Origin: an uncultured Clostridia bacterium
GTDB taxonomy: Bacteria; Bacillota; Clostridia; Christensenellales; Borkfalkiaceae
Length of the DNA: 64,000 bases
Direction of reading: 5' to 3'
Assembly (NCBI GenBank): GCA_947631905.1
Contig: CANRND010000007.1
Coordinates: 16,077-80,076, forward strand
This document shows positions 18,301 to 43,344 of this stretch, piece by piece (position 1 is the first letter of the stretch; every line of letters begins with the position of its first letter). The translations under genes were made by a program, and so were the position numbers. The notes below the pieces were generated by a model. The model was given only the letters and a program-made list of their open reading frames with translations. It searched no databases and had not been told where the DNA came from.

Positions 18301-21300
18301 GTTCCGCTACGCCGCCGCCGACGGGCGCGTCCACATCTTCAAAGGTCACTTTGTTCAACGGGTATATGGCACTCTTGCTCGTACCGCCGCTGAACGCGTA
18401 TGATTGGATCAGTTGCACGCTGACGGGGATCGTGATCTCGGTAAGTCCCGGGTGCTGATAGAACGCATATGCCGCGATGGTCAACACGCCGTCGGGAACC
18501 CGATACGCACCCTTAAACCCGAGCGGGCAATAGTAGAGCGTCGTCTTATCCGCGTTGAAGAGCAAACCGCTGTCATCCGACGAGAAGTTCTTCTGGGCGC
18601 CCGTCCCCTCGGTGACGATGAATTTTTCCAGAGAGGTCGTACCCTTAAAGATAAGCACCTGACCGCTCCACGTATTTTCCAGCGTATCGGGGAAGGAGAC
18701 CGTTTCGAGCGCGACGCAGGAGTCAAAGACGCTGGCCCCGATCTTTTTAAGGGAAGCGGGGAACGTGATTGTTGTAAGGCCGCTCTTGCTGAACGCATTG
18801 TTCCCTACCTCCGTGAGCCGGTTGCCGTCGGCAAAGGTGAACGTAGTGAGCGCTTCGCAGCTGTCGAACGCATTCGTCGAAATGACGGTAACGTCTTTGG
18901 GAAGTTCGAAACTTCTCAACGCGCTGGCCTGGAACGCATAAGTGCCGAGCGAGTTGAGTTTGCTCTCCTTGGTGAAGGTGACCGTCTTCAAGCCAGAAGC
19001 CTGGAACGCATAATTGCCGATCGTCGTCAGACTGTCGGGAAGTGCGATCGTCGTAAGGCCGCTCTTCCAGAACGCATACGTGCCGATCGTAGTGAGATTT
19101 TCGTTCGAGGCAAACGTGACTGTGGTGAGGCCCGTTGTGCTTTCAAAGGCATTGGTCCCGATCTCGGTGATGGACGCGGGCAGGGTGAAACTTGCAAGCG
19201 CACTGCACTGGCGGAACATGTATCCCGAAAGCAGGGTGAACTCTTCGCTCGTCGTTCCGAAGTCGACTTTCTGCAAGTTTTCGGAAACTTCGAACGCGCG
19301 TTCGCCGATCTCTTTGATGGAGTTGGTCCCCTCCGTCGGGAAGGTGACTTCTACGAGTCCGCTTGCCGAGAACGCCTTTTCTCCGATCGAGATGAGCGAA
19401 GAAGGCAGACGGAGATACTTCACTTTGGTCTGGTAGAAGGCGTAAGCGCCGAGCGAAACAAGGCGTTCGGGGAGTTCTACCGTTTCCACACCGCCGAAGC
19501 CGCCGAACACGCTCGTATCGGAAAGGTACGACGTTTTGTTGGTGTTAAGAGCTGCGTCTACAACGGTGAGGCCCACCGCATCGGTCCCCTCGGGCGTGGG
19601 CTGGAACGTCAAGCCCGTAAGGCCCGTTACATTATAGAACGCGGCGATGTCGATCGTTTCTACCGTGTAAGGCACGGTGACGGAATTTGTATTGCCGCCG
19701 GGGCAGACGATGAGCTTCGTCTTGTCGTAATCGTACAACACGCCGTCCTGCACGGAGAAAGTCTTGTTATTTGCGCCGAGCTTGATCTCTTTCAAGCTGT
19801 TCGCCGTGGAGAACGCGCGAGCGCCGATCGTCGTGACCGACGAGGGAATTGTGATCTCGGTGATGCCGCTGCTCTTGAACGCTTGCTCGCCGATCTCCGT
19901 CAACTCCGTATCGCTTGCGAAATTCACCTTCGTGAGATCGTGGCAGGCAAAGAAGGTTTTCTCGGGGATCACGGTTACGCCCGCGGGAATGGTAATTTCG
20001 CCCGCAAGGCCCGAAGAATCGAATGCGCTTGCGCCGATCTCGGTGACCTTTTCGGGGATCTTGAACTCACCGAGCGCCGTGCAACCGTTGAACGTATTCG
20101 CGCCGATCGACGTGACGGAAGCGGGAAGTTCAACATCATGCAACTTCTTGCACCCGCTGAAAGTGCCGGATACAGACTCCAACTTGCTACCGGGCGAGAA
20201 CGTGACCGTTTCGAGGCCGTTCATGTCTGTAAACACCGCGCCGAGCGAGGTGATGCTGGCGGGAATATTGACGGACTTGATCGCATGGCAACCCTCAAAC
20301 ACCTTTGTACCGAAGGTCGGGTTGATGCCCTCTTCGAAAATGACTTCTTTCAAACCGCCGACAGGGTCGCCGTTTTCGTCCGTGATGATTGTGTCTGATT
20401 TGACGTCTTTCGACACGCAATCCTTAAACACGCCGTCGCCCAAACTCGTAACGCTCTTGGGAATGGTGATCGAGGTGAGGTTCTGCGCTTCGCGGAAGAC
20501 ATAATTCCCGAGTTTTTCCAGCTTCTGCGGAAGCGTGATTTCCGTGATGTTGGTCTTATAGAATGCGCTCAGCGCAATCTCCGTCACGGTTTCGGGAATG
20601 TCGATATGAAGAGGCTTTTCGGCGTCGTACCTTGCCGTAGACGGCTGGAAGGCCTGATCGCCGATTCTGACAAGTTGGCTCGGATGGGTCTCGTCGCCGA
20701 ATGTGACCTCTTCGAGGGTGTTGGTCGCATAACCTGCCCTCACCTCCGTCATACGGGCGGGGAAGTGAATGACTTTCAGCCCGCTCCCCGTAGCGATGTT
20801 TGTTACGTTAGTGGGATTTGTCGTAGGACTGCTCTTGAATTGCCATTTGATATCTTCGGTGCCGCCCTCTTCAAATTCGATCTCTTCGAGGCCCAACATG
20901 TAGGAGAACGCATTACTGCCGACATACGTAACGGTGTTGGGGATCACGATCTTCTTGACTTTGGTCGGCAAAAAGGCGCTGTAAGTGGAAGTGGAGCTAC
21001 CATAGAACATGCCGTTGGCGATCTCCGTAACGCCCTCTTCGATGGTGATCTTTTCAAGGTCGCGCAGGTAAGCGTAAATGCCGTTGCTTGTGCTGTACGC
21101 ATACGTCACGCCCTTGCGGACGGTAACTTCTTTGAGACCCGTGAATTGGAATGCCTGCAAGCCGACCGTCGTCACGCTTTCGGGCATATCGAACTCTGTC
21201 AAACATATTTGCCCGATAAACGCCTGCTTGCCGATCGAGGTAAGCTCGCTCTTATGGGTCTCGTCGCCGAACGTCACTTCTCTGAGTACTGCTTTCGGCG

Positions 21301-24300
21301 GGTTGGAGGGAGCAGAGGTACCTACAAAGAATACGAAATCGGGCAATGCTTTCAAACGCGCGGGGAAATGGACCTCGGCGAGCGAGGAGCAACCTGCAAA
21401 TAAGCCCGTCGAAGAGGAGGTCGCATTCACCAGTTCGAGCGACTCTGCTTCTTCCCCGTCCTTGGGTTCGAGGAACGTGACCGTTTCGAGCGCCGTGCAA
21501 TTGTAGAACGCGCCCGCAGCGATTTTCGTCACGCTCGCGGGGATCACGATGCCCGTGATCGATGTGTTTTTCTGGAATATGTCTTTGGAGATCTCCGTGA
21601 TCGTTTCGGGCAATTCGAAATCGCCCGCCTTGCCCAACGGATAGAAGACAAGTTTCGTCATACCCTTGTTGAACAGAACGCCGTTTACAAGTTCGAAACT
21701 CGCATTGTCGGGATCGAGATAGAGATTGGCAAGGGAAACGCATCCCGTGAACACGCTGTCCATGCTCGTGACATTGGCGGAAATGTGCAACGTGGTAAGC
21801 GCTTCGCACGTGTCGAACGCGCCCGCCACCAACGTGAGGCTGGGGGAATCTTTCGTGCCGTCCATGAAGATCTCGGTGAGCTTCGCGCATTTCTGGAAGG
21901 CATTCTTATCGATCTTCACGACGGTTGCGGGGATATGAAGCACGGTGACCCCTGCGCCGCTGAACGCCTCCTGCCCGATCGTCACGATCTTGGTCCCCTC
22001 TTCGAACGTCAGAGTTTCGGCTTTGGTGCAACCGCTGAACGCTTTGGAGCCGATCGTAACGTCGCCGATCGCGTTTTTGTTACTGAACTTGATATAGGTG
22101 AGCGCGGAGCATCCGCTGAATGCGCTCGTATCGATCGTGGTGATGTACCCAGGGATGGTAACGCCCTCGAGCTTGGTGCAGCCGCTGAACGCGCTCGCGC
22201 CGATCTCCGAGATGCCGTTCCCAAGCGGGATCGTCAGTTCGCCGCTCTTCCCTTTCGGGCAATACACGATCTTCGTTGCCTGGCAGAGCATGCCGTCCAA
22301 CGATTCATAGTGGGTGTTGCCTGCCGTGATCGTGATGCTTTCCAGCGAGGAGCAACCGCTGAACAGCGGCTTGTCGCCCGTGAGCGGGAGTTCGCCCGTC
22401 TGCTTGGGAAGTTGCACCGACGTCAAAGCGGTACAGTCATAAAACGCCCTCTCGGCGAACGTAAGCTCGGTCGTCACCACGCCGTCTACGTCCTCTATGC
22501 TCACGCTTCTGAGCTGTTTGCACTGGTAGAACGCCTGCGATTCGATGCTCGTGACCGAAGCGGGAAGGGAAACTTCCTCGATCATCGCACTTGCAAACGT
22601 ACGGGTGGGAATGGATTTTACGCCGTATTCTTCGGGAAGAGAGAACGAACCCGTCTTGCCCTGCGGGAAGAACACAAGCCTGTTCGTGGGGGTATCTTCG
22701 ATGTCGCGCTTTTCGATGAGCGCGCCGTCGTGCGAAGCATAGTGCGCTTCCGCCCTCTTGTTATTGAGCAGTTCGGACTCATAGACCACAACTGCCTGCA
22801 AGTTATCGCAACCCTGGAAAGCGTTCGAGCTGACGAGCATGATGCTGTCGGGGATCTCCACCGTGAGCAACTTCTTGCACTTCTCGAAGCCGAGCGCATT
22901 TATAAGGGTAACGGGTTTTTGGTTGTAGGTCTCGGGAATGGTGACCTTGCTGACATTGTCGATATACGGTCCCTTGCCCACCGAGTACTCTTTTACCGTG
23001 ATGCCGTCTAATTCATAGGTAGGCGTAAATTTGAGAACTTCCGCCCAATAAGGGTAGACCGTCATATCGGACGCGATCGTCCACGGCGCCACGCTGTTGC
23101 CGTCCGAATCGGTGTACTGGGTACCCATCCCGTTCACCGCGCTGAACCAGCCGTAGAAGCCCGAAGTCTCGTCTTTGGGCGTGGGAACGTCGAGCCGGTA
23201 ATTCTCGCCGTACACCACCGTATCCGTTCCGGAAGTCCCTTCCGTATAAGAATAGGTAATGGTGTAGCTCTTCGGCTTCCAGTTCGCGTAGAGCATGATG
23301 CCCGTGTTTTCATTATAATATTCGTCGGTATATTCTTTGGCGTTGCCGTTCGCTCCGCCGAGCGCGTTATACCAACCGTCGAAGTCATATCCCGCGAGGG
23401 TCGTATCCGTGGGAAGCGTTACCTTGTCCCCCGTCGCCAGATAGATCGGGTCCACCGCGCTGCCTTTGCGAGTGTCGAACTCCACCGCATACGCTTTCAC
23501 CGTGATGGATACCCAGTCGGAATAGCGCCTGCCGTTGTAGAAACGCACGGAGAGAACGTTGTCTCCCTCTTTCGTGAGGGTGATGGGCGCCGAACAGCCG
23601 TCTTCGACGTCCACCGCCTCGCCGTCGTTCACTTTCACCTGATAGCGCGTCGCGCCGATCACGGGTTCCCAGCTCAGAACGCTCTTCCCATAGGTGAGCG
23701 CCTCGGAGAGCGCAACGTACCGCACGTCGAGCGGTTCGCTCCACGCCGAGTCGTTGGTACCCTTTGCGCGTACCGAGAGGGTGTAATCGCCGCCTTCGCT
23801 GAGCGTAAGCCCCGACAGCGTGGCGATATCCACACTCGTCCCCGTCACGGGGTATGTTTTGCCGTTGATCCGCACTTCGTAAGAGAGCGCGCCCTCTATG
23901 GCGGACCAGCTCAGTTCGGTGCCTTTGATTTTGAGGTTTGAAGGCGTAGCCAGTTTGTTCTTATGATAGGTCAGCGAAGTGGGCTGGGGCGAGTTGTAAC
24001 CTTTGGTATAAGGATACACGTTGATTATGATGCCGCCGTCCTGCTCCTCGCATTCTTTCAGATCGAAATAGGTGTTGCTCCCCACGTTCACCAGAGAGTG
24101 ATCGTGCGCGGGATTACCGCAGGAGACCGACACCACATAGTTCGCGGCGTTGGGAACGGAGTTCCAGGTCACGACCTGGTTTTCTTCGTCCACATGCAAA
24201 TTGGTCACCGCCGCTAGCGATCTGTCGTACTTGAACACCTCCGACTCGGACGAAGCATAGCCGTTTGCCGCGGCCACGACCGTAAACTCGATGCCGCCCG

Positions 24301-25531
24301 CTTTCATCTCGCAGTTGGAGAAGTTGTAATTCGTGGAGGGACCGTTATCCACCATCTCGTGGCGGTGTCCCTCGTTCCCGCACTTTACCGTAATATAATA
24401 CTTCTGCGCGTTTTCCACCGCATTGAACAAAAGGGTGGAAGGCTCAATCACGCTGAACAGCGATACGCGCGCCAACGCCTTGTTTTTATAAAATCTCACG
24501 GTGGGCGCCGCGCCGTTCGCCTTGACGGTGATGGTATAATCCCCCGCAGGCGCGTTTGCAAAGTCTACGGGTACGGTCGTCGCGGCGACGGTCCCCGAAA
24601 TCGTCTTAAATTCCGAGGGGCCTTTCACTTCATATTCATAGCTCGCGGCAACACCCGTACTGCTCCAACTGATGCTGTCGGATTTGACGCTCACGAGCGG
24701 CGACGCGGGAAGCGCCGAAGCGGAATTGTCCGTCCACACCGCGTACAGCGTGGTATTCGCATTGAACGCCGTCTCCGCCGTCCATTCCGCCGTGAGTTTG
24801 TCCGCATCTTCGTAATCGCTCATCCACCAGCCCACGAACTTATGGCCTTCCCATTCGACGGAGGGCAATTCGTACAGCTTCTGGCCGATCGTTTTGACGG
24901 GTTCGGGCGTCTCCGCTCCCGTGTACCCCGGGTCAAAGTTGATTGTATACTCGGGCTTTCCTTCGTAGGTCTCCGCCCAACGCGCATACAGCGTAAGGTC
25001 GCCCGTTACCGTCTGCGTGCCGAAGATAAAGGGATGCTCATACTCCTTATCCGTATACCAACCCAAAAACGCATGGCTCTCTTTGGAGGGATCGCCGGGC
25101 TTCTCCATCGTTTTTCCGTTTACAACGTACTCCTCCCCGACGGCGCTTCCGCCCTCGGAATCAAACGTGACGGTATACGTGATCTTTTTCAAAAATCTCA
25201 TCTGTGAGCCGTCTTTTTCGAGCGTAAGCACGTTGTCTTTGAGCGTTGCGCTCACCTGTGCGTCCGTCTCGGTGGAAAACCGCAGATCGAGCGTTTCGCC
25301 CTCCAACGCATATGTACCCGACTTGTTCTCTCCGTCTACCGAGTAGGTGAACATGTGTCCGCTGCTCAAAGTGATGAGATATTCGTCGTTGCGGGCGTCG
25401 TAGTAATACACGCCCATTTCGGGACCGTCTTGGAGAACATCGCCCTTGCACGCCGCGACCGCAAACCCCATGAGAGCTACGGTGAGCGCGAGCAGCGAGC
25501 AGATCCAATTCCTCTTGGTCTTCGACTTCAT
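15344..25531 (-). CDS. giant BspA-like LRR_5 surface lipoprotein with InlB-type and Fn3/Ig-like N-terminal modules
   Basis: ~3395 aa from MKSKTKRNWICSLLALTVALMGFAVAAC (lipobox AVAAC); InlB-like YTVTFDSEGGSAVGEE...FLGWYTDKEY; dozens of ~23-aa LRR_5 repeats (SIGANTFNGCTALGEFKIPEKVTEIG...); SD GGAGAAGG before start. Confidence 0.93.
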   Translation of the reverse strand: MKSKTKRNWICSLLALTVALMGFAVAACKGDVLQDGPEMGVYYYDARNDEYLITLSSGHMFTYSVDGENKSGTYALEGETLDLRFSTETDAQVSATLKDNVLTLEKDGSQMRFLKKITYTVTFDSEGGSAVGEEYVVNGKTMEKPGDPSKESHAFLGWYTDKEYEHPFIFGTQTVTGDLTLYARWAETYEGKPEYTINFDPGYTGAETPEPVKTIGQKLYELPSVEWEGHKFVGWWMSDYEDADKLTAEWTAETAFNANTTLYAVWTDNSASALPASPLVSVKSDSISWSSTGVAASYEYEVKGPSEFKTISGTVAATTVPVDFANAPAGDYTITVKANGAAPTVRFYKNKALARVSLFSVIEPSTLLFNAVENAQKYYITVKCGNEGHRHEMVDNGPSTNYNFSNCEMKAGGIEFTVVAAANGYASSESEVFKYDRSLAAVTNLHVDEENQVVTWNSVPNAANYVVSVSCGNPAHDHSLVNVGSNTYFDLKECEEQDGGIIINVYPYTKGYNSPQPTSLTYHKNKLATPSNLKIKGTELSWSAIEGALSYEVRINGKTYPVTGTSVDIATLSGLTLSEGGDYTLSVRAKGTNDSAWSEPLDVRYVALSEALTYGKSVLSWEPVIGATRYQVKVNDGEAVDVEDGCSAPITLTKEGDNVLSVRFYNGRRYSDWVSITVKAYAVEFDTRKGSAVDPIYLATGDKVTLPTDTTLAGYDFDGWYNALGGANGNAKEYTDEYYNENTGIMLYANWKPKSYTITYSYTEGTSGTDTVVYGENYRLDVPTPKDETSGFYGWFSAVNGMGTQYTDSDGNSVAPWTIASDMTVYPYWAEVLKFTPTYELDGITVKEYSVGKGPYIDNVSKVTIPETYNQKPVTLINALGFEKCKKLLTVEIPDSIMLVSSNAFQGCDNLQAVVVYESELLNNKRAEAHYASHDGALIEKRDIEDTPTNRLVFFPQGKTGSFSLPEEYGVKSIPTRTFASAMIEEVSLPASVTSIESQAFYQCKQLRSVSIEDVDGVVTTELTFAERAFYDCTALTSVQLPKQTGELPLTGDKPLFSGCSSLESITITAGNTHYESLDGMLCQATKIVYCPKGKSGELTIPLGNGISEIGASAFSGCTKLEGVTIPGYITTIDTSAFSGCSALTYIKFSNKNAIGDVTIGSKAFSGCTKAETLTFEEGTKIVTIGQEAFSGAGVTVLHIPATVVKIDKNAFQKCAKLTEIFMDGTKDSPSLTLVAGAFDTCEALTTLHISANVTSMDSVFTGCVSLANLYLDPDNASFELVNGVLFNKGMTKLVFYPLGKAGDFELPETITEISKDIFQKNTSITGIVIPASVTKIAAGAFYNCTALETVTFLEPKDGEEAESLELVNATSSSTGLFAGCSSLAEVHFPARLKALPDFVFFVGTSAPSNPPKAVLREVTFGDETHKSELTSIGKQAFIGQICLTEFDMPESVTTVGLQAFQFTGLKEVTVRKGVTYAYSTSNGIYAYLRDLEKITIEEGVTEIANGMFYGSSTSTYSAFLPTKVKKIVIPNTVTYVGSNAFSYMLGLEEIEFEEGGTEDIKWQFKSSPTTNPTNVTNIATGSGLKVIHFPARMTEVRAGYATNTLEEVTFGDETHPSQLVRIGDQAFQPSTARYDAEKPLHIDIPETVTEIALSAFYKTNITEITLPQKLEKLGNYVFREAQNLTSITIPKSVTSLGDGVFKDCVSKDVKSDTIITDENGDPVGGLKEVIFEEGINPTFGTKVFEGCHAIKSVNIPASITSLGAVFTDMNGLETVTFSPGSKLESVSGTFSGCKKLHDVELPASVTSIGANTFNGCTALGEFKIPEKVTEIGASAFDSSGLAGEITIPAGVTVIPEKTFFACHDLTKVNFASDTELTEIGEQAFKSSGITEITIPSSVTTIGARAFSTANSLKEIKLGANNKTFSVQDGVLYDYDKTKLIVCPGGNTNSVTVPYTVETIDIAAFYNVTGLTGLTFQPTPEGTDAVGLTVVDAALNTNKTSYLSDTSVFGGFGGVETVELPERLVSLGAYAFYQTKVKYLRLPSSLISIGEKAFSASGLVEVTFPTEGTNSIKEIGERAFEVSENLQKVDFGTTSEEFTLLSGYMFRQCSALASFTLPASITEIGTNAFESTTGLTTVTFASNENLTTIGTYAFWKSGLTTIALPDSLTTIGNYAFQASGLKTVTFTKESKLNSLGTYAFQASALRSFELPKDVTVISTNAFDSCEALTTFTFADGNRLTEVGNNAFSKSGLTTITFPASLKKIGASVFDSCVALETVSFPDTLENTWSGQVLIFKGTTSLEKFIVTEGTGAQKNFSSDDSGLLFNADKTTLYYCPLGFKGAYRVPDGVLTIAAYAFYQHPGLTEITIPVSVQLIQSYAFSGGTSKSAIYPLNKVTFEDVDAPVGGGVAELVIGTKPTKVGDRDTKSAVFSATSITSIKFPKRLTYLGGQSFQYSKLKTVDFNGAQLEEIQYKLFQETELETVTLPEGITLIQSDSFNGTKLRNVVVPEGVTAVESGAFQKCAQLVSVSLPSTITKLHYGSGYTTTIFDGCTALETVTFAPGCKLTSFWGNLFKGCSSLRSIEVPAGVTELGGNSNNGSVFEGCTSLSSVTFLSDNTLKSIDGNAFKGCSSLTEINIPESVTYFGGSTFYGTGLKTLKIPAGVTALNASLFANSALEEITIPATVDTINSSAFENCASLHTVTFEKNSPVTTLPGGTLGGLFKNCTSLETVVLPDGLENLGEGAFLNCSSLANITLPDTLTSIAAKAFSGCSSLPAIDIPQSLTLTAIGNEAFKDCTSLTTINIPGNVATVGNSAFEGCTGLQKVSFAVGVETLGDYAFSGDINITELEIPASLLSVGANPFLGVKEVTVSTLNDTFDLEETDVSKALYADGMRTLVSVLSAVDVFNIPEGVTKIGSGAFRGSDISVVFIPETVTEIGDYAFAEAAKLRDVNFTGADEPAEQGTMIGQRAFYNCDSLLSINIPARFTGFGNYAFAESEKLATVKLPEGFTSLGTNTFQNCASLSSINMPESVKKIGNYVFDGCASLEEFDFSHLGGEVLIIGQYAFRNSGIREVTLPLEVVDASTTSNMGTYAFAGCKNLTAVHNLGSVVSNVFQNCVNLQTVEFSPNIRTARSLNSSSVFAGCTSLRSVDMSMLTASGMPGSSFFEGCTSLESFKYPQTFTGSGTTISISSAIFKNCTSLKEIQFPEIEDKPIGQISGNAFENCKLLTEEVLSFPSATQFNAYAFAGTGITEFTVGSTVTTLSNNVFSNCKELKTVHLNTSSRITEIGTALFDGCSSLSTLTFGDDALTYIKKISVNAFRGCVSLESFTFTKAITTVQADAFSGWTADQKIYLATPRSELSMDTGTTDANSSKWNQNWARGCYAQIIDPEPEAD

Positions 25532-25714
25532 ATTGCCTTCTCCTTTCCAAATTTTTCGTTTTGAAACGTCCGATCTTCGCGGTTCTCTTTTATGCAAAAA
25601 ATATGTATACCGTTTTTTGCTCCGAAAATGCGCCGCAATGGAATGTTTTTTCCTGTTTTGTTACTTTTTTACGCTTTTTGCAAGATAGAATGCTCCACGA
25701 TCGGATTATTTATT

Positions 25715-29549: not shown

Positions 29550-30818
29550 CTATGCCGCATTGATCTTCTGCACGGCGTGGATGCAAAGGTCGAACAGGAC
29601 AAATTTACTTTCCACTTTGTTGTTGTTTGTATCGTCGAGGAATTTCAGCGTCACGGTAAAATTTTCCGATTCGCCGACGCCGACCGACCCGACCGCCTCG
29701 CTCTCTTCGCCCAACGTAAGCCCGTCGCTAAGACGCACTTCGCGCTGCTCGCCGTCCTCTGTCGAGACGGTAAGCTGCAACATGGAAGCGAACGTCGGAT
29801 CGCTCACGACCGCATTGCAAAAAGTTTCGAGATAGTAATAAAACGCCACGTTGCCGCCGTTTGCGATCCGCATTTCGGCGGTAAATGTGCTGCCGGGCGC
29901 GGCTACCGTTCCCGCGGTGATGCCGAAAATATTGTCCTGATTTGCCGTAGAAAAGTCCTTGACCTTGTCATCGACGACGCTCGAAAAGTTGCCGTCACTG
30001 CCGAGATTGTAGGTCGTGAGTTTCACCCGTTCGAGCGTCGCTTTCAGTGAGCCAGCCACGAGATGGGTTTGGAAGGACACTGTTTCGTCGTACAGACCGT
30101 AAGATACACCGATCAAAAGCGCAACACAGCACAAAAAAAGTGCAACAATCGGTACAAATATCTTTTTTTTCATAGTTCCCTCTGTGCGGAGGGACTTCGG
30201 CCCGAAAGAAAGACTGCCCTTATCTTTGAGCGTTTCCATGAGCGTTGCCGCCAAAACGGCCATACACAAGACGACAAAACTCTGCGGTTGCCGCAAGATG
30301 CATAGCAGGACCCCGAGGAAATGGCTTTTGGCGACGACTTTGCCGATCACACGGTTAGGACTCTGCGGGTCGGACGTATCGATTTTTTGCGTCCCCACAT
30401 TCGTCCCATTGTCGCCGCTAAGAACAATGGTGTACCCGTCTCCCCGCCGTTCGATGCTCTGGATCCTGTGCGTGACCACCGTGCTTCCGCCGATGACCCG
30501 ATAAGAAAACGTCAGAACGTCGCCCGCTTTGAGGCTTGAATAAAATCTGCCGCGCGCGCGTTCGCTCTGCGGGACAAGTTTTATCAAGATCAAACTCCCA
30601 ACGGGGATCTCCTCTATGGCATAAGGTTCGGAGCCCGCCTGCGGGTCTTTCTCCATCGACGAGGACATCACGATCCGCGCCTGGTAGCCGAACAGCCCGC
30701 GGCCGCCGAGGCAAAATATCATGATAACGCCGCCTGCCGCGATGAGGAGCAGAACGGAGACCAGGATATATTTGATGATACTTCGGGTACGTTTGCGCCC
30801 GTCTTTTGTGTTTGTCAT
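29550..30818 (-). CDS. SipW-type signal peptidase fused to TasA/camelysin-like SipW-dependent substrate
   Basis: N-terminal S26B peptidase (VMSSSMEKD, VVTHRIQSI, LSGDNG, C-terminal TM), then MKKKIFVPIVALFLCCVALLIGVSYGLYDETVSFQTHLVAGSLK, a SipW-type signal and N-terminus. Confidence 0.85.
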   Translation of the reverse strand: MTNTKDGRKRTRSIIKYILVSVLLLIAAGGVIMIFCLGGRGLFGYQARIVMSSSMEKDPQAGSEPYAIEEIPVGSLILIKLVPQSERARGRFYSSLKAGDVLTFSYRVIGGSTVVTHRIQSIERRGDGYTIVLSGDNGTNVGTQKIDTSDPQSPNRVIGKVVAKSHFLGVLLCILRQPQSFVVLCMAVLAATLMETLKDKGSLSFGPKSLRTEGTMKKKIFVPIVALFLCCVALLIGVSYGLYDETVSFQTHLVAGSLKATLERVKLTTYNLGSDGNFSSVVDDKVKDFSTANQDNIFGITAGTVAAPGSTFTAEMRIANGGNVAFYYYLETFCNAVVSDPTFASMLQLTVSTEDGEQREVRLSDGLTLGEESEAVGSVGVGESENFTVTLKFLDDTNNNKVESKFVLFDLCIHAVQKINAA

Positions 30819-32552: not shown

Positions 32553-35500
32553 TTAAGTAGCCTCAACCCACTCGCCCGTGATGACAATGTCACTCGTGTC
32601 ATAAAGCGTTGCACCGTTATAGGTGTACTTGATTTGCACATGTGCGCGCGGCGTATCGGCGGGTTCTACTCTTTCTTGTTGCGCGGAAATTACGCCCTCC
32701 GGAGGATATTCTCCTGTCGTAGTCTTTGTCCCGATTGCTCGTACAATATCGCCGAGAACCGCTCTTTCAGTAAAGGCCTCGAAAGAATACGTCAATTCGA
32801 GCGTCACTTGATCTGCGAATGCGCCGACGAGTTTCCCGCCCGAAAGCACCGCTTCCATCGCGTAATCGCAGTACGTTGTTCCACCGACATGGCCCACAAA
32901 GGGGATGTCACGACCTCCTTCAACTCTTTCATTGCTTTTCTCCGTCTTTGTGAGCGTCACGGTGAGGTTGCTCACCCAAAGGGCTTCGAGGGTCGTTTCC
33001 TTATGATCCGCACCGAGTTCATATTTGGCGCCGACATTTACCTTTGTCCACGAGCCGTCCTCTCTCTGCTCATACCAACCAACAAACGTGTAGCCTTTGG
33101 CGGTGGGTTCATACACGGTGTGATCTGTGCCATAGTCCACCGTAAGCTCATACGCGTTCTTTATGACGCCCTTGACTGTAAACGCAACGTCGCTCCGATA
33201 GACAATGCGATCGGGATCGTATTCCGCAACAAATGTTGCGCCGTCCAAATCGATCTCGGGGTTCTTCTGCCAATGTCCGTCGCGGGTTCCGAATGTAAAG
33301 TCGGGAACAGGATAATCATCGAGATCGAATACGGTCTTGTCGTCCGTCACGGTCTCGGTGGTATTGCCGAAGGTAATTTGCGCGCCGTACCACATATCAA
33401 CCTTATAGTACCAATCATCTTCCGCTTCGTCATAAAGCCAGTTGTTGCCGAGTTCCGTTTTTGAGCGGAAGGTGACTTCTAAGGGGCGTCCGTGCGCCAT
33501 TGTCCAAACAACGTAGTCTCCGGAAAGGGTCTCGCCGGGATCGACTTCCGCCCAACCCATGACCTGCGTGGGATCGGCGGGTGCATACTTTTCGGCGGAA
33601 ACGTCGGGATAGCCGAGCGCACTATACAGTGTATTTGCGGAATTGCCGTCGGCACCCGTGGAGGCGATGACTTCCTGCGTGCCGAGCGTCTCCTCTCCTT
33701 CTGTGCCGTGGTGCTTGAAAGTGACGGTCTGCCTCTGTCCTTCGAGGAAAGTGGCAAAACCGATGTAGTCCTCCGTACCCCAGCCCTGGGCAAACAGTTT
33801 CTCCGTCATGCCGCCGAAGCCGCTCGCCTTATCGTCGAGATTATCTTCTTTGATAATGTCATGCGTTTGATCGGTGACGCCGTCCTCCATCGATCCACCG
33901 GGATTGCGCCAATGAAGCGTAACCGTAGCGTCGATAATCGAAACGACCGAGGTGCTCGCGGTGATGTCATGAATATAGCCGTTTGTATTCTCTGCGATTG
34001 TGACATGAAGGTCACCGAGAACGCCCTTGACAAGCGCATCGCCGTTGAGCGTGAGATCCCACGAGGCGGGCTTTGTAATTTCTCCCTGTTCGTTCTTCTG
34101 CTCAGCTGTGAATGAGTATGCGCTAAGCACATCGGAAAGGCGTTTGCCAAAGTCAACCTTTACCGCCGTTGACGACGTGGAACCAGAACCGGAGCCAATC
34201 GCGGAACTGAGAGCGTTCGTAACCGTATCGCCGAAGTTGAGGATAAATCCGATATGGTCGAGGATATCCGCCGTGAAGCTGCTGAGCGGTGCGACACGGT
34301 AGAGCGTGATAGGCGTATCGTAATCTGTCCAACCAGAACTCCAATCTAATAAAGTGGCTGTTTTATAATAGCTCGTCTGCACGCGCTTCATGTAGACCAT
34401 GCCGCCCTTGATGGTGATATCCACCGTCGAACTGCCGTTGATCAGCGTAACCACCGCGCGCGAACCCTCATACGCGAGACGGATATTGATCCCAAGCTCG
34501 CCGTTTTCATCCACAGTGACCGAAATTGCAATGACGTTGATTGTGATGTCTGTCAATTTCAGTCCGCCGAGGTGGAGTTTGATCGTCGCTGTCCCGTCGA
34601 TATAGAAGTTGTTATTTACCACATAGTGGTGCGGGGTCTCCTCGCCCGAGATGATCTTATCCGTCTGTTCGCCCGCCTCGTTGACGCCGTGCGTGGCGCT
34701 CTTTGCAATGGCGAGAATGAGTTTCTCCGCGCCGAGGAAGCTCTGATATTCGCCGCTCGGAACATCGGGCGTTACGACATTGTAATCAATGGTACCTTGT
34801 AGCGAAGTGTTGAGTTTGCCCGTCTTATCATAGATGTTGAAAAGATCGAGGCTTGTAAAGTTGCCGTAATGATAGCCCTTTTCGTCCTCTGTATCGGCCT
34901 CTTTTTGAAGGGTCGCCGTGACGTTTTGAAGCCCCGCTATGCCGTAGAGTTTCTCAGAGTTGAGTTCAATGGAGAGTTCCTCCGCCGTGACCGTAAGCCC
35001 TTTCAGATAGTCTTTTATGAGCAACGGCTCTGCGGGCGTTTCGGGTTCCGCGGTATCTGCGGAGTCTGCGGGTTCCGTTGTGTCTGCGGGTTCTTCGGAC
35101 GTTTCTTTTGCGCCGAGAAGACCCGAAAGAAGCGGGGAAACAAGGTCGCCAAACGCTTTGAGCTGCGCCACGTTTTCGAGCGAGAGCCACTTTGAGATCA
35201 TGTAGTTGTTGAGGATCTCCACGTCGATGCCGAACATGGGAAGCGCCGAAGAGAGAATGGTGAGGATCTCGTCCGACGGCGCGTACAGCCGCACGGGATT
35301 GTAGCCCGCTACCGTCTCCGCAGTGGAATCTGCGGGGCCGAACTGCGAGAGGGTGACGTAGAAGTCGAGCATGTTGTCCGTTTTATATTTTACTTTGCCC
35401 GCTTCGTCCAAAACGGTATTGCCCTCTGCATCCTTCTCGGCGGCGCCGTCGAGGATAAACAGGTCGATATAGAGGCTGTTGTCCGCTTCGTGCGTCGCCT

Positions 35501-38500
35501 TAATATTGATGGAGGCGTGCGCGAACACATCGGTATCTACCCAGAGATTATTTCCGTCTACATCGAGATGGATGAGGTTGCTCTGGCCGCGGTGGGTCGA
35601 CATGGACGCTTCGATCGTGTACTTGGTCCCGAACTCCTCTCCCTCTGCGGGCGGATAGGCCTCCTTATCCGTCGAGGTGACTTTGCCGCTAAACGTGAGC
35701 GTAAGGTCTTTCGTATTGAGCAGGTCTACCGCAGAGCCGAGATAGCCGATGAACGCCTTAAATTCTTCCGTGCCGAGATAGGTGATCTCAGGCATTTCGG
35801 GGAACTCAACAATGTTCTTCCCCGTCTCGTCCTTACCGCTGTACGGTGCGTTTTTCAGATGGAGCATGCCGTCGAGTTTGAGCGCAGAATTTCCGAGAGA
35901 GCCGCTCAGTTCCACACCGAGGAAGCCGTTAGCGGACGGGAAGAAGAGCCGCGCAATGAGATCGCCGTATGTGGCGAGGATGTCCGTCTGCCTCGTTTGG
36001 AATGCGAGCGCTTTGACGATTTCCGTCCATACGGGCGCGGCAGGCTCGCCATCGCCCGAGGTCCCATTGAGCGTCTTCTCGAAATCTTCGGGTGCGGGAA
36101 GCGGATTTTTACTCTTGTCTACAAGCATATCCCCGACGATCGAGTACAGATCGCCGTAGACATCAAGGAGCGCCTCTTTCAGAGAGCCGAGTTCACTGAT
36201 GACGATCTCCGCGCCGAGCGCGCCGCATGCAAGCCGCACCGTTCCGTTGTCGTAGCCGAGGAACACTTCGAGCTTCACTTGCTTCTGCAAGTAGATGAAA
36301 GCATGCAGGCGGAACATTATCCCCTTTTCAAAGGAGAGTACGGCGTTTTCGATCTCCACGTCGATTTCAAAGTCATCATTCAATGTAAGTACGACGTCTC
36401 CGCTCAGTGCAAGAGCCTTATCCGTAAGGACCGTTGCAACATTTTCGAACAAGGGCGTGAGATCGAGGTATCCCTCGGTCGCCACGGAGAAATCGCTCCC
36501 GCTCTTTACCGTAATTTCCGCACCCAAAACCTTTGCGGTGATCCCCGTTTGGGTAATTTCCACTTCCACGTTCCCGAGTTTGAACTCCACCCCGAGCGCG
36601 CTCAGAAGTTCGTTGCCCGCAACGGTAAGTTGAAGAATATTTTCTTCGGATACTTCGCCTTCTTCGGATACATAGCTTCTTTGGACTTCTTGGAATACGG
36701 GAATAAGTGTTTTCAGATCGACGGAGAGCAGCTTTTCGATGAGCGCTTCCGCTTTCGTATCCCCGCTTGCTCCCACAAGAGAGGTGACAAGCGCGACCGC
36801 TTTCTTCGCGTCGAGAGACACTTTGAGGCTTTCCGCGGGGTTCCCGTCATATACCGTGAGATAGAGACCGTCTTCCGCGTACACGATCCCGATCTGTTTG
36901 AGCGCATCCTCGCCATATTTGAGCGCGAGCTGTGCGCCGGCTTTAAGGGGATCGATACCCAGAGCTACGGTTCCCGTGACGATGAGATCGCCCGCCGTGT
37001 AAGTGACGTCCGCGCTGAGATACCCGCTCTTGATCATCGTTGCAATGGTGCTTGCATAGTCGACGATGCCGATATAATTATCCGTGTTCGTCTCGAAAGA
37101 CGCACCCTGTTTGATTGTGATCACTGCGCCGAGCGCTTCGGCCGTCACGCTGTCGCTGTCTACCGCAAGCGTCACTTGCCCGAGTTTGAACTTCACGCCG
37201 AGGGCGTTCAAAAGTTCTGTACCTGCGATCGCAAGGGAGAGCGTATTCCCTTTTTCCGTGAGCGTGAATACCTTTTCAAAGTTCAGGGAGAGCAATGTTT
37301 CGATGAGGCCGGTTGCCTCGGTATCGACCGTGGGAATATTTACAAACTGCCCGATGAGAGCGATCGCCTTGTCCACATCCGCAGAGAATTTCATCCCGTC
37401 CGCTTCGAGATAGACAACGCCCGCGCCGTAGATGATATTGATGTCTTTGCTTGCTGTTCCGTAGGTAAGCGTGAGGTTACCCTGCACTTGAAGAGTTTTT
37501 TCGAGCGCGATTTGGAGATTTCCCGAGACGGATAAATCATCCGCGGTGTAGGAAACATCTGCGGACAAATACCCGCTCTTGATCATGTTTGCGACCGTGC
37601 TTGCGTAATCGATGATGTCTATGTAACCCGTAGTTTCTACGTCGAACGGTTTGCCTGCCTTTACCGTAATTACCGCGCCGAGCGCTTCGGCCGTCACGCT
37701 CTCGCTGTCTACCGCAAGCGTCACTTGCCCGAGTTTGAACTTTACGCCGAGGGCGTTCAAAAGTTCCGTTCCCGCAATGACAAGTAAAAGCGTATTCCCG
37801 TTCTCTTTGAGCGTAAATACCTTTTCAAAGTCCAAAGAAAGCAACGATTTGAGGAGGTCTTTCTCTTCACTGTTGCCCGTGGGAAACTGCCCGATGAGGG
37901 CGATCGCCTTGTTCACATCCGCAGAAAGTTTCATCCCGTCCACTTCGAGATAGACCGTGTTCTCGTCGTAGATAATATGGATATCTTTGCTTGCCGTCCC
38001 GTAAGTGAGCGTGAGGCTTCCCTGTACTTGAAGAGTTTCAAGCGCGATTTGGAGATTTCCCGTGACAGAAAGATTACTCGCGTTGTAAGTGACATCCGCG
38101 CTGAGATACCCGCTCTTGATCATGTTTGCGATCTTGCTTGCGTAATAGACTACATTGATATAGCCCGTGGTGTCTACGGTGAACGGTTTGCCAGCCTTTA
38201 CCGTAATTACCGCGCCGAGGGCTTCGGCTTTCACGCTCTCGCTGTCTACCGAGAGGGTGACTGTTTGAAGATCGAACTCCACCCCGAGCGCGTTCAAGAG
38301 TTCCGTTCCCGCGATCGCAAGGGAAAGAGTATCTCCCTTTTCCGTAAGCGTAAATACCTCTTCAAAGTTCAAAGAAAGCAACGATTTGAGGAGGTCTCTC
38401 TCTTCGCTGTTGCCTGCGGAAATATTTGCAAACTGCCCGATGAGGGCAATCGCCTTGTTCACATCCGCAGAGAGCTTCATTCCGCCCACTTCGACATAGA

Positions 38501-41500
38501 CCGTATTCTCGCAGTAGATAATATGGATATCTTGGCTTGCCGTTCCGTAAGTGAGCGTGAGACCACCCTGTACTTGAAGAGTTTCGAGCGCGATTTGGAG
38601 ATTTCCAGAGACGGAGAGATCGCCCGCCGTGTAGGTGACCTCTGCGGACAAATACCCGCTCTTGATCATGGTTGCGATTGTGTTCGCGTAGTCCATGATG
38701 TCAATGTAATGATCCGTGTCCGTCTCGAAAGGCGCACCCTGTTTGATTGTGATCGTTGCGCCGAGGGCTTCGGCTTTCACGCTTTCGCTGTTTACCGAGA
38801 GGGTGACTGTTTGAAGCTCAAACTCCACGCCGAGCGCGTTCAAGAGTTCCGTCCCTGCGATCGCAAGGGAAAGCGTATCTCCTTTCTCCGTGAGCGTGAA
38901 TACTTCTTCAAAGTCCAGAGAAAGCAATCCTTCGATGAGATCGGTTGCCTCGGTATCGCCTGCGGGAATATTTACAAACTGCCCGATGAGGGCGATCGCC
39001 TTGTTCACATCCGCAGAGAGCTTCATCCCGCCTACTTCGAGATAGACCGTATTCTCGCCATAGATGATGTTGATGTCTTGTTTCGCGCTTCCATATTCCA
39101 GCGTGAGCGAGGCTTTCACTTTGAGCGTTTCAAGCGCAATTTGGAGATTTCCCGACACGGAGAGATCACCCGCCGTGTAGGAAACATCCGCGGACAAATA
39201 CCCGCTCTTGATCATCGTTGCAATGGTGCTTGCATAATCGACGATGCCGATATAGCCCGCGGTTTCTACGGTGAACTCCGCGCCCGCCTTTACCGTAATC
39301 ACCGCGCCGAGCGCCTCGGCTTTCACGCTCTCGCTATCTACCGACAGGGTAACTGTTTTAAGATCAAACTCCACGCCGAGGGCGCTTAAAAGTTCCGTTC
39401 CCGCGATCGCAAGCGAAAGCGTATCCCCTTTCTCCGTGAGCGTGAATACTTCTTTAAAATCCAACGAGAGCAATGCTTCGATGAGATCGGTTGCCTCGGT
39501 ATCGCCCGCGGGAATATTTACAAACTGCCCGATGAGCGCCACAGCCTCATTGATATTGGCGGAGAGTTTCATGCCGCCTAATTCGAGATACACAACGCCC
39601 GCGCCATAGACGATGCTGATGTCTTGGCTCGCGCTTCCATATTTCAGCGTGAGCGCGGCTTTTACCGCGAGGGAATTGAGTGCAAGCTCTATCTTGCCCG
39701 ACACAGAGAGATTGCCTGCATTGTAGGAGACGTCTGCGCTGAGATACCCGCTCTTGATCATCGTTGCAATGGTGCTTGCGTAGTCTACGATGTCGATATA
39801 ATGATCCGTGTCCGTCTCGAAAGGCGCACCTTGTTTGATTGTGATCGTTGCGCCGAGGGCTTGCGCCGTCACGCTGTCGCCGTTTATGGAGAGAGTAATG
39901 GTGTCGAGTTCGAACTCCACGCCGAGCGCGTTTAAGAGTTCCGTCCCTGCGATCGCAAGGGAAAGCGTATCTCCTTTCTCCGTGAGCGTGAATACTTCTT
40001 CAAAGTCCAGAGAAAGCAATTCTTCGATGAGATCGGTTGCCGCGGTATCACCTGCGGGAATATTTACAAACGGCCCGATGAGGGCAATCGCCTCGTTGAT
40101 ATTGGCAGAAATCTTCATCCCGCCCACTTCGAGATAGACCGTATTCTCGCCGTAGATGATGTTGATGTCTTGTTTCGCGCTTCCATATTTCAGCGTGAGC
40201 GCGGCTTTCACCGCGAGGGAATTGAGTGCAAGCTCTATCTTGCCCGACACGGAGAGATCGCCTGCCGTGTAGGAAACCTCTGCGGACAAATACCCTCTCT
40301 TGATCATCGTTGCGATCGTGCTTGCGTAATCGATGATGTCGATATAGCCCGCGGTCTCTACGGTGAACGGGCTGCCCGCCTTTACCGTAATTACCGCCCC
40401 GAGCGCTTCGGCTTTCACGCTCTCGCTGTCTACCGAGAGGGTGACAGTTTGAAGATCAAACTCCACCCCGAGCGCATTCAACAGTTCCGTACCTTTGAGC
40501 AAGACTGTGAGCGTATCGTTTTCTTCACCGAGGGTGATTACCGAACCGAAATCGAGCGCAAGCACCTTGTTGATGAGCGCTTTTGCGTCGAGGTCGCTCT
40601 CCGCGCCCGTCAGCGAGGAGACAAGCGCGGCCGCCTCGTTGACGCCTGCTTTGATCCGCAATCCCTCTACGTCCAGATAGACAGAGCCACCCTCGTAGAT
40701 CACGGAGAGCGTCTTCTCTGCATTTTGATAGCCGAGAACGATCTCCCCTACCGCCGTTTGCGAAGCGAGATTGAGCATGATTTCGCCCGCCGCCGTAAAG
40801 CCGCCCCCCGCATAGGAGACGGAAATCAAAAGATTTTCATGGGAGAAGAGGTCTATGAGCGTCTGCACATAGGGAAGGACCGATGTGTAGCCGTCCGTAT
40901 CGAGCGTAACGTCTGTTCCCGCCGTGAGATCGATCTCCGCGCCGAGAGCGGTTGCGGATAGGCCGTCCCCTACCGCGATCTTCACGTCGCCGAGGGCGAA
41001 ATTTACCCCGAACGCCGAGAGCAATTCGCTCCCCTTGACGGCAAGGAGGAGCCCGTTCTCTTCCGAAGAGGAGAAGAGCGCGGCAAACTCATCCGAAAGC
41101 AGGGTGTTGATCAGCGCGCCGAGATCGAACCCCGAGAGCGCGCCCTCATCGGGCAATTCGGGCAATGCGACATATTGTTCAAGAAGCGCAATGTCTTCCT
41201 CCAAAGTTGCCTGCACCTTAACGCCGTCGAGATCGAGATAGAACGTGCCGTCCGTAAAGGAGAGGCCGACCGTTTTGGAAAGTTCAACGCCGTCCAAAGA
41301 GACGTCCACCTGCAACCGGCCCGCAAGGGCAAGCTCTTTGATCCTCAGATCGAACCCGCCCGAAAGCGCGATCCCCTCGCCCATGTAGGAAATATCCGCA
41401 TGCAGAACGTCCGAAGAAAAGAGTCCGATGAGTTTGTTCACATAGGGCATGAGCGGGACATATTCCGTCTTTTGGGAAGCGCCGAGCGCGGGAAGATGAT

Positions 41501-42749
41501 CGCTGCCGAAGCCCAACTGCGCGCCGATCGAAAGGGTATCGCCGAGCGACACGGTTGCGGTAACTTTCTCGACCGAAATTTCGTTATTTTCTCCGATGGA
41601 GAAGTAGAAGTCAACGGGGATATTCAGCCCGAGAAGAGGCAGCACGGAATGGAGTTCCGCCTTGCCGTCCGCCAGCGTAAAATCGCCGCTCCCGAGCGCA
41701 GAGAGAAGATCGTCCCCCTCTTCCGCCTGCACGTCCGGCTCCGCCTCCTGCGTCAAATCTTTGACGAGCGAAATCAGCTCGTCTAATTTGACCGCAAATT
41801 TCAAACCGCCGTAGTTGAGATAGGCGTTGCCCTCTTCCACCCAGAGCGAAAGCGGGCCGAGCTTGACCTTAGCAGCGAGTTTCGTCGGATCGAATGCGGC
41901 AAAGTCCGTTTGGCTCAGGTCGAGATCGACGGTCCCGCGGTAGGGCGTGTCGCCGACCGTGAGGTCGAGGTCGAGAACGGTCGGCTCGGTAAGCACGCTC
42001 CCGAAGCCTTCCGCAAGGCAATCGAGCGCCGTGATCTCTTTCACGACGGGCGCGTTGTTCGCTTCTCCCTCGGCGTATTGGTAGAAATACTCCTCGTATG
42101 CGTCCGAATGCGCCTTTTCGGTGTTATATTCATATCTTGTGGTGGATGTGGATACGCAGGGCGCCGCGATGGGGCCGTACTTTGCCGAATATTTTTCCTC
42201 AATATCCGTTTGGAATACCTGCCAGTTCTCGTCGAAAGTAAAGGTAACGGAGATGGCGTTGAACTCGGGAGGCGTGGTGAGGCCGCCCGTGAAGATCATT
42301 TGATTGATGTAATAGGCGGTGGCGCCCTTTGTGGTGAGAACGCCGTCCACCTCTTCCTGCCACGTTTCGGGCTTCAACTCGTAGGTGATCTTGAATTTGC
42401 CGTCCTCCGTGGGCGTGACGGGGCTTGTACTTGCCACCGTGTCCTCTTCGATGACGTACACGCTGAGTTCGTAGGCGGGCAAGCCGTTTGTGGCTTTGAA
42501 CCCGTGTTCGCCGCCGATCGTCATGATGTTGTAGGGCGCGCCCGTCTTCCATTCGGTATCCAGGCCGTTGTAGTTTTTGGAGGCGGGTTTGCGCCAAATC
42601 ACCCTGTCTTTTTCTTTGAGATAGCAAAACTGGCTCGCGCCCTTGATGAGCGAACTCTCCGTGAGGTCGGCGGAGATGAGGACGCCGTTCTCATACTGCT
42701 TGTATGTAGTGACGGACTGTTGGATGACCGTATCTACGGTGCCGTGCAT
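32553..42749 (-). CDS. body of giant repetitive surface protein (~3398 aa), InlB-like module near C-terminus
   Basis: About nine ~182-aa repeats (DYASTIATMIKSGYLSADVSY...LSVSGNLQIALE...VYLEVGGMKLSADVNKAIALIGQF...TELLNALGVEF...), C-terminal YGTDHTVYEPTAKGYTFVGWYEQ. Listed start is only the first ATG after an in-frame stop; likely one gene with 42768-43097. Confidence 0.85.
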   Translation of the reverse strand: MHGTVDTVIQQSVTTYKQYENGVLISADLTESSLIKGASQFCYLKEKDRVIWRKPASKNYNGLDTEWKTGAPYNIMTIGGEHGFKATNGLPAYELSVYVIEEDTVASTSPVTPTEDGKFKITYELKPETWQEEVDGVLTTKGATAYYINQMIFTGGLTTPPEFNAISVTFTFDENWQVFQTDIEEKYSAKYGPIAAPCVSTSTTRYEYNTEKAHSDAYEEYFYQYAEGEANNAPVVKEITALDCLAEGFGSVLTEPTVLDLDLTVGDTPYRGTVDLDLSQTDFAAFDPTKLAAKVKLGPLSLWVEEGNAYLNYGGLKFAVKLDELISLVKDLTQEAEPDVQAEEGDDLLSALGSGDFTLADGKAELHSVLPLLGLNIPVDFYFSIGENNEISVEKVTATVSLGDTLSIGAQLGFGSDHLPALGASQKTEYVPLMPYVNKLIGLFSSDVLHADISYMGEGIALSGGFDLRIKELALAGRLQVDVSLDGVELSKTVGLSFTDGTFYLDLDGVKVQATLEEDIALLEQYVALPELPDEGALSGFDLGALINTLLSDEFAALFSSSEENGLLLAVKGSELLSAFGVNFALGDVKIAVGDGLSATALGAEIDLTAGTDVTLDTDGYTSVLPYVQTLIDLFSHENLLISVSYAGGGFTAAGEIMLNLASQTAVGEIVLGYQNAEKTLSVIYEGGSVYLDVEGLRIKAGVNEAAALVSSLTGAESDLDAKALINKVLALDFGSVITLGEENDTLTVLLKGTELLNALGVEFDLQTVTLSVDSESVKAEALGAVITVKAGSPFTVETAGYIDIIDYASTIATMIKRGYLSAEVSYTAGDLSVSGKIELALNSLAVKAALTLKYGSAKQDINIIYGENTVYLEVGGMKISANINEAIALIGPFVNIPAGDTAATDLIEELLSLDFEEVFTLTEKGDTLSLAIAGTELLNALGVEFELDTITLSINGDSVTAQALGATITIKQGAPFETDTDHYIDIVDYASTIATMIKSGYLSADVSYNAGNLSVSGKIELALNSLAVKAALTLKYGSASQDISIVYGAGVVYLELGGMKLSANINEAVALIGQFVNIPAGDTEATDLIEALLSLDFKEVFTLTEKGDTLSLAIAGTELLSALGVEFDLKTVTLSVDSESVKAEALGAVITVKAGAEFTVETAGYIGIVDYASTIATMIKSGYLSADVSYTAGDLSVSGNLQIALETLKVKASLTLEYGSAKQDINIIYGENTVYLEVGGMKLSADVNKAIALIGQFVNIPAGDTEATDLIEGLLSLDFEEVFTLTEKGDTLSLAIAGTELLNALGVEFELQTVTLSVNSESVKAEALGATITIKQGAPFETDTDHYIDIMDYANTIATMIKSGYLSAEVTYTAGDLSVSGNLQIALETLQVQGGLTLTYGTASQDIHIIYCENTVYVEVGGMKLSADVNKAIALIGQFANISAGNSEERDLLKSLLSLNFEEVFTLTEKGDTLSLAIAGTELLNALGVEFDLQTVTLSVDSESVKAEALGAVITVKAGKPFTVDTTGYINVVYYASKIANMIKSGYLSADVTYNASNLSVTGNLQIALETLQVQGSLTLTYGTASKDIHIIYDENTVYLEVDGMKLSADVNKAIALIGQFPTGNSEEKDLLKSLLSLDFEKVFTLKENGNTLLLVIAGTELLNALGVKFKLGQVTLAVDSESVTAEALGAVITVKAGKPFDVETTGYIDIIDYASTVANMIKSGYLSADVSYTADDLSVSGNLQIALEKTLQVQGNLTLTYGTASKDINIIYGAGVVYLEADGMKFSADVDKAIALIGQFVNIPTVDTEATGLIETLLSLNFEKVFTLTEKGNTLSLAIAGTELLNALGVKFKLGQVTLAVDSDSVTAEALGAVITIKQGASFETNTDNYIGIVDYASTIATMIKSGYLSADVTYTAGDLIVTGTVALGIDPLKAGAQLALKYGEDALKQIGIVYAEDGLYLTVYDGNPAESLKVSLDAKKAVALVTSLVGASGDTKAEALIEKLLSVDLKTLIPVFQEVQRSYVSEEGEVSEENILQLTVAGNELLSALGVEFKLGNVEVEITQTGITAKVLGAEITVKSGSDFSVATEGYLDLTPLFENVATVLTDKALALSGDVVLTLNDDFEIDVEIENAVLSFEKGIMFRLHAFIYLQKQVKLEVFLGYDNGTVRLACGALGAEIVISELGSLKEALLDVYGDLYSIVGDMLVDKSKNPLPAPEDFEKTLNGTSGDGEPAAPVWTEIVKALAFQTRQTDILATYGDLIARLFFPSANGFLGVELSGSLGNSALKLDGMLHLKNAPYSGKDETGKNIVEFPEMPEITYLGTEEFKAFIGYLGSAVDLLNTKDLTLTFSGKVTSTDKEAYPPAEGEEFGTKYTIEASMSTHRGQSNLIHLDVDGNNLWVDTDVFAHASINIKATHEADNSLYIDLFILDGAAEKDAEGNTVLDEAGKVKYKTDNMLDFYVTLSQFGPADSTAETVAGYNPVRLYAPSDEILTILSSALPMFGIDVEILNNYMISKWLSLENVAQLKAFGDLVSPLLSGLLGAKETSEEPADTTEPADSADTAEPETPAEPLLIKDYLKGLTVTAEELSIELNSEKLYGIAGLQNVTATLQKEADTEDEKGYHYGNFTSLDLFNIYDKTGKLNTSLQGTIDYNVVTPDVPSGEYQSFLGAEKLILAIAKSATHGVNEAGEQTDKIISGEETPHHYVVNNNFYIDGTATIKLHLGGLKLTDITINVIAISVTVDENGELGINIRLAYEGSRAVVTLINGSSTVDITIKGGMVYMKRVQTSYYKTATLLDWSSGWTDYDTPITLYRVAPLSSFTADILDHIGFILNFGDTVTNALSSAIGSGSGSTSSTAVKVDFGKRLSDVLSAYSFTAEQKNEQGEITKPASWDLTLNGDALVKGVLGDLHVTIAENTNGYIHDITASTSVVSIIDATVTLHWRNPGGSMEDGVTDQTHDIIKEDNLDDKASGFGGMTEKLFAQGWGTEDYIGFATFLEGQRQTVTFKHHGTEGEETLGTQEVIASTGADGNSANTLYSALGYPDVSAEKYAPADPTQVMGWAEVDPGETLSGDYVVWTMAHGRPLEVTFRSKTELGNNWLYDEAEDDWYYKVDMWYGAQITFGNTTETVTDDKTVFDLDDYPVPDFTFGTRDGHWQKNPEIDLDGATFVAEYDPDRIVYRSDVAFTVKGVIKNAYELTVDYGTDHTVYEPTAKGYTFVGWYEQREDGSWTKVNVGAKYELGADHKETTLEALWVSNLTVTLTKTEKSNERVEGGRDIPFVGHVGGTTYCDYAMEAVLSGGKLVGAFADQVTLELTYSFEAFTERAVLGDIVRAIGTKTTTGEYPPEGVISAQQERVEPADTPRAHVQIKYTYNGATLYDTSDIVITGEWVEAT
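36961..40480. repeat. ~546-bp direct tandem repeats inside the giant gene
   Basis: Anchor tacccgctcttgatcat (last copy taccctctcttgatcat) at 37021, 37570, 38107, 38653, 39199, 39745, 40291: spacings 549, 537, 546, 546, 546, 546. Confidence 0.9.
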
Positions 42750-42767
42750 CTCGGCATACCAGAGAGA

Positions 42768-43097
42768 TTATTGGGAAAATTTCCAGTTCAGGCGGGCAAA
42801 GACGTCCACGGGGGAATAGTCGCCCGTGAGGGAATACACCTCCCCTTCCGCCACGGCAACGGACGGAGAACCGTAGTTGAGGTCGACGGTATTCCGCTGG
42901 GTCTCTTTGAAAAACGCCGACCCGACGCCGTAGATCCCCAATACCAGCACAAGCGCCGAACAGAGGGTTACGACCGCTTTCGACGTGCGGGACATTCTCC
43001 TTTTGGCGTGCAGATGCAGGCCGTCCTTTTTATTTTTTACGGCGCGCGGACGGCGCTTATTTTTGATCTCATGCATTCCGTTTTCGGCTTTTTTCAT
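42768..43097 (-). pseudogene. N-terminal signal/anchor part of the giant protein, ended by in-frame TAA
   Basis: Basic N-terminus plus TM (SKAVVTLCSALVLVLGIYGVGSAFF); stop at 42770-42768 is in the same frame as the 3398-aa ORF, 6 codons before its ATG. Confidence 0.75.
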
Positions 43098-43155: not shown

Positions 43156-43204
43156 TCATAAAAGTTTATGACAATATTCTATCAGATTTATGACGGGATG
43201 TCAA
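43156..43204 (-). promoter_or_regulatory. promoter and candidate operator of the giant gene
   Basis: TTGACA-17 nt-TAGAAT (43204-43176) overlapping palindrome TCATAAAAGTTTATGA (43156-43171). Confidence 0.7.
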
Positions 43205-43309
43205 CAGAATCTTGAAAATTTTACCGGAAAATACTACAAAAAAATTTAAATTCCTGCAACAGAAAAGGCTCCCCCGCTCACGGGGAAGCAAAGGCGGGCA
43301 ATATAGAAT

Positions 43310-43344
43310 GTCGCGGGCAGGCGCATATAGCGCCCGCCCGCGAC
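43310..43344 (-). terminator. intrinsic terminator of MATE gene
   Basis: GTCGCGGGC...GCCCGCGAC stem. Confidence 0.7.

Follow-up and report, generated by a model that had tools for sequence, protein, structure and literature searches.

The analysed stretch of DNA, hereafter called the window, comprises 64,000 nucleotides and contains on its minus strand a giant reading frame which is interrupted by a single in-frame TAA. The open reading frame upstream of this codon (43097-42768) corresponds to 109 amino acids, with the C-terminal end ...ARLNWKFSQ, and is closed by the TAA at 42770-42768. Its 109 codons (42771-43097) encode a basic N-terminal tail, a hydrophobic signal or anchor segment (approximately residues 41-63) and the first part of an exported domain. 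After the TAA, which is codon 110 of the gene (42768-42770), the same frame reads on as SLWYAEMHGTVDTV..., and the remaining 3,404 codons and their TAA stop codon occupy positions 32553-42767. The first ATG is found six codons on, at 42749, and the open reading frame that begins there (42749-32553) corresponds to 3,398 amino acids, remaining open until the TAA at 32553. The initial annotation had described this pair of open reading frames in one frame around a single TAA, and both the coordinates and the translation were confirmed, as was its estimate that approximately 10.2 kb of frame is open behind the stop (no further stop codon in 10,212 bp). It had also assigned the only membrane segment to the upstream piece, in agreement with the hydrophobicity profile, in which residues 41-59 of that piece form the maximum (19-residue mean 2.25, compared with at most 1.72 in the downstream piece) and the sole strong hydrophobic stretch.

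Adjacency of two open reading frames in one frame is by itself common, 32 loosely defined same-frame pairs being present in the window; such pairs were considered as a base rate and rejected as too frequent to be informative. Family searches with selected same-frame pairs gave different families or no match, and never two halves of one family. That the two pieces are one split gene is shown by homology that is continuous across the stop, not by the in-frame adjacency of the open reading frames. The residues flanking the stop align without a break, in a single frame, to homologues from many genomes, and searches with either piece led to one and the same gene in congeneric relatives, where it is a single open frame. 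The relatives are homologous along the full length of the upstream piece (83-87 % amino acid identity for the closest), and the first 305 amino acids after the stop have 89-91 % identity with the closest relatives, in frame with their N-termini.

The expression signals lie ahead of the upstream piece. A putative sigma-70-type promoter, TTGACA-17-TAGAAT with a TG ahead of the second hexamer, was found at 43176-43204 (minus strand) on consensus matches only (11 of 12), 0.5 promoter-like sites being expected per shuffled region, and a Shine-Dalgarno sequence of the GGAAAGGAG type, kept in the relatives, precedes the start of the upstream piece. No promoter-like site was found around the stop and, on inspection by eye, no Shine-Dalgarno-like run before the first downstream ATG, in line with the initial annotation, which had placed the promoter and Shine-Dalgarno sequence before the upstream piece. 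Two strong terminator-like hairpins (43268-43344, minus strand) are located between the MATE transporter gene, which they closely follow, and the promoter of the giant gene.

Pfam and NCBIfam searches with both pieces identified no covering family, and the matches of any meaning were weak or below threshold. Matches to Cas_NE0113 and PolC contained no stretch that passed alone and were taken as repeat-driven noise. The first exported domains (41505-42764, minus strand) belong to no Pfam family. AlphaFold2 modelling of the 420 residues that follow the stop gave a structure of fair confidence (pLDDT 79) which resembles half-barrels of the LolA/LprG type; LolA and LprG were matched by Foldseek at its highest probability (1.00), but with TM scores of only 0.42-0.49 on the target. 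Approximately ten tandem repeats of about 182 amino acids (546 bp) each follow at 36177-41786 (minus strand; residues about 328-2197 of the downstream protein), the inner copies being 62-78 % identical to the reference unit. The model of two repeat units was of low confidence (pLDDT 53), and LprG, again at probability 1.00, was the sole match interpreted. No sequence match was found in the PDB. Near the C-terminus (33015-33185, minus strand; residues 3194-3250) there is a Listeria-Bacteroides (InlB-type) repeat below threshold (PF09479, E 1.8e-5, 25.2 bits against a cut-off of 27; TIGR02543, E 0.0018, 18.6 bits against a cut-off of 20.95). The giant exported InlB-repeat proteins of Clostridia (PF09479/TIGR02543) are comparable in their length of thousands of residues, their signal or anchor, their tandem repeats and the InlB-type repeat towards the C-terminus, whereas here the N-terminal domain and the 182-amino-acid repeats have no convincing Pfam match and their resemblance to LolA/LprG half-barrels is weak. 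These features can safely be read as those of an exported surface protein with several domains; binding of a lipid or another ligand would be a guess.

Other genes with features of secreted or surface proteins are found in the same window. A second giant open reading frame (15344-25597, minus strand; 3,417 amino acids) is intact and has a signal-like start and InlB-type repeats, after which many leucine-rich BspA-like repeats were seen by eye in the translation. At 29550-30818 (minus strand) a SipW-type signal peptidase (residues about 1-200) is in one frame with a camelysin/TasA-like protein, which by resemblance, without a family match, looks like the peptidase's own substrate. The substrate-like half runs from an ATG inside the frame (30173; residue 216), and a weak GAGGGA run is located three bases ahead of this codon. 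The fused frame is also present in the genomes G007 and G005 (76 %) and G010 (49 %), and in G008 and G020 the peptidase and the substrate-like half are separate, adjoining genes. The end of the signal region of the interrupted giant gene (42867-42929, minus strand), GVGSAFFKETQRNTVDLNYGS, resembles a SipW-type signal, although the family models gave no match; going by the look of this sequence, the giant gene would be linked to the peptidase at 29550-30818.

The DNA around the interrupted junction was matched in 58 of 103 genomes of the genus, the nearest being 84-88 % identical over the junction. Among the 43 distinct sequences aligned over the stop, only that of the window has a stop codon; the others have CAG (26), CAA (12), AAG (3) or GTC (1), i.e. 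a sense codon in 42 of 42 homologues (38 Gln, 3 Lys and 1 Val), the GTC belonging to a distant, poorly aligned copy. The ten homologues with at least 75 % identity have CAA (nine) or CAG (one). The TAA is thus one C-to-T step, on the coding strand, from a conserved glutamine codon, and is private to this genome. The comparison of the same position in related genomes, which the initial annotation had proposed as a check, accordingly gave a stop in 0 of 42 homologues. When homologues were followed over long stretches, 17 reached their own end stop and nine reached contig ends, often inside the repeats; none was interrupted at the position of the stop. No second copy of the gene was found in the window's own genome, a 2.0-Mb draft of 58 contigs. 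A possible second interrupted copy, in G002, was rejected, the flagged TAG being located upstream of the real start of the G002 gene.

The homologues themselves vary in length and copy number. A short complete homologue of 1,155 amino acids in G001 (L131, 1138-4602) may lack the C-terminal part. The 4,917-amino-acid homologue of G005 (L097, 2836-9147) has repeats that score identically against the window in several steps of 1,146 bp, a pattern that suggests recent duplication or an assembly effect. Two copies (L094 and L095) are present in G036; the complete one is an open frame of 3,479 amino acids with about 62 % identity to the window, and the other, with about 90 %, is cut by a contig end. 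The named relatives are titled uncultured Clostridia bacterium and most are from samples named 'Lapin', a name which, as we read it, suggests rabbit gut.

Calculated from the codons present in the 10,212 bp behind the stop, 237-344 stop-creating changes would be expected per neutral substitution per site, and none was observed. This limits the neutral divergence since the stop arose to at most about 0.9-1.3 % (95 %), provided that the downstream part has evolved unconstrained and untranslated, as continued suppression of the stop would likewise preserve the frame. For comparison, the two closest relatives are at a dS of about 0.37-0.55. Pairwise dN/dS in the downstream part is 0.11-0.22, which is constraint as strong as that between other relatives; undiminished pairwise constraint is expected, since the event would be very recent. 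Private changes downstream of the stop numbered 12 nonsynonymous and 5 synonymous in the window, compared with 142 and 125 in the other taxa; the window thus leans towards nonsynonymous change, but the difference was not significant (Fisher P 0.21) and gives no demonstration of relaxed constraint.

We consider it likely that the TAA is a recent, private nonsense allele which causes loss of function of a giant exported repeat protein. The intact gene would encode one exported protein of approximately 3,500 amino acids, in which an N-terminal signal or anchor segment is followed by a genus-specific domain, about ten repeats of 182 amino acids and, close to the C-terminus, a repeat of the InlB type. 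Its conserved glutamine codon 110 would have been converted to TAA in the sequenced lineage by one C-to-T substitution on the coding strand. Translation would then halt about 50 residues past the membrane segment, and the body of 3,400 amino acids would either not be made or not be exported. The frame behind the stop would not yet have decayed because the stop is evolutionarily recent. Two points of this reading are inferred: the base would be genuine and not introduced during assembly, and the allele would have lost its function. No new mechanism is required. Premature-stop alleles are common in gut bacteria: in a Bacteroides fragilis data set, 28 of the 325 nonsynonymous mutations that had arisen de novo within hosts were of this kind (PMC11379459). 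As in those alleles, the change in the window is a private single-base nonsense change, recent, in an otherwise intact gene for a likely surface protein; unlike there, a single genome is known here, from which frequency, selection and reversion cannot be judged.

An error in the consensus or assembly, with the organism keeping a sense codon and an intact gene, would have the same appearance and is the main rival, though unlikely. The difference is one base, in a codon that is otherwise conserved, and was seen in only one draft genome (58 contigs). This genome is probably a metagenome assembly, as are the named relatives, whose contigs have SPAdes-style names and whose samples are called 'Lapin'. 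An error is made less likely by the rest of the gene, 10.2 kb of which show no frame damage, by the ordinary nature of a C-to-T mutation and by the generally low error of short-read consensus sequences. A mixture of strains, moreover, would yield a true minor allele, not an error.

The stop could also be one phase of a reversible switch, in which a giant surface protein is turned off by nonsense mutation and on again by reversion, under pressure from host or phage; the genome would then have been sampled in the off phase. This reading is one form of the recent nonsense allele, in which the stop is locally favoured and later reverts, and it seems distinctly improbable. An exported giant repeat protein with an intact frame behind the stop would suit it, as would a model, published for gut bacteria, in which premature stops and their reversion are adaptive (PMC11379459). 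However, no second nonsense allele was seen at the position of the stop in any relative compared, the surroundings of the stop contain no switching device, a point mutation by itself does not amount to a programmed switch, and the case consists of a single genome.

Functional readthrough of the stop, or a suppressor tRNA, yielding some full-length protein is very unlikely. Programmed readthrough and stop recoding share with this locus an in-frame stop with a long open frame behind it, and the survival of that frame, together with a tRNA set in which tRNA-Gln, -His, -Lys and -Ile are missing among the binned tRNAs, is what can be said in its favour. In contrast to programmed cases, the stop here is not conserved (0 of 42), and the sense codon of the relatives leaves no conserved readthrough signal. 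The context is an ordinary one, UAAU, which has been ranked as the most efficient bacterial terminator (PMC5289835). None of the 38 tRNA genes found, a set without tRNA-Gln, -His, -Lys and -Ile, reads a stop codon, and the genes for both release factors, RF1 and RF2, are present and free of internal stops. Reassignment of TAA had been judged unlikely in the initial annotation, which took it for a genuine stop elsewhere in the window; this is borne out by the two release factors and by ordinary genes of the window that end with TAA, e.g. those for S-adenosylmethionine synthetase and the MATE transporter. Among the four options that the annotation had left side by side, the relatives thus favour a recent nonsense substitution, or a consensus error mimicking such a substitution, and speak against conserved or programmed readthrough and recoding.

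That the locus comprises two separate genes, the downstream one starting at its own ATG six codons past the stop, is hardly credible, given that this ATG has neither a Shine-Dalgarno sequence nor a promoter, that the product would have no signal segment and that the region is in the relatives the middle of one conserved reading frame.

With the recent nonsense allele as the preferred explanation, the case mostly advises caution: when one draft genome has an in-frame stop, its relatives should be consulted before readthrough is invoked. Should the base be real, this would be another gut bacterium shedding a very costly surface protein through one mutation. More deserving of study than the stop is the intact gene family, which is large, spans the genus and has no description in the libraries searched.
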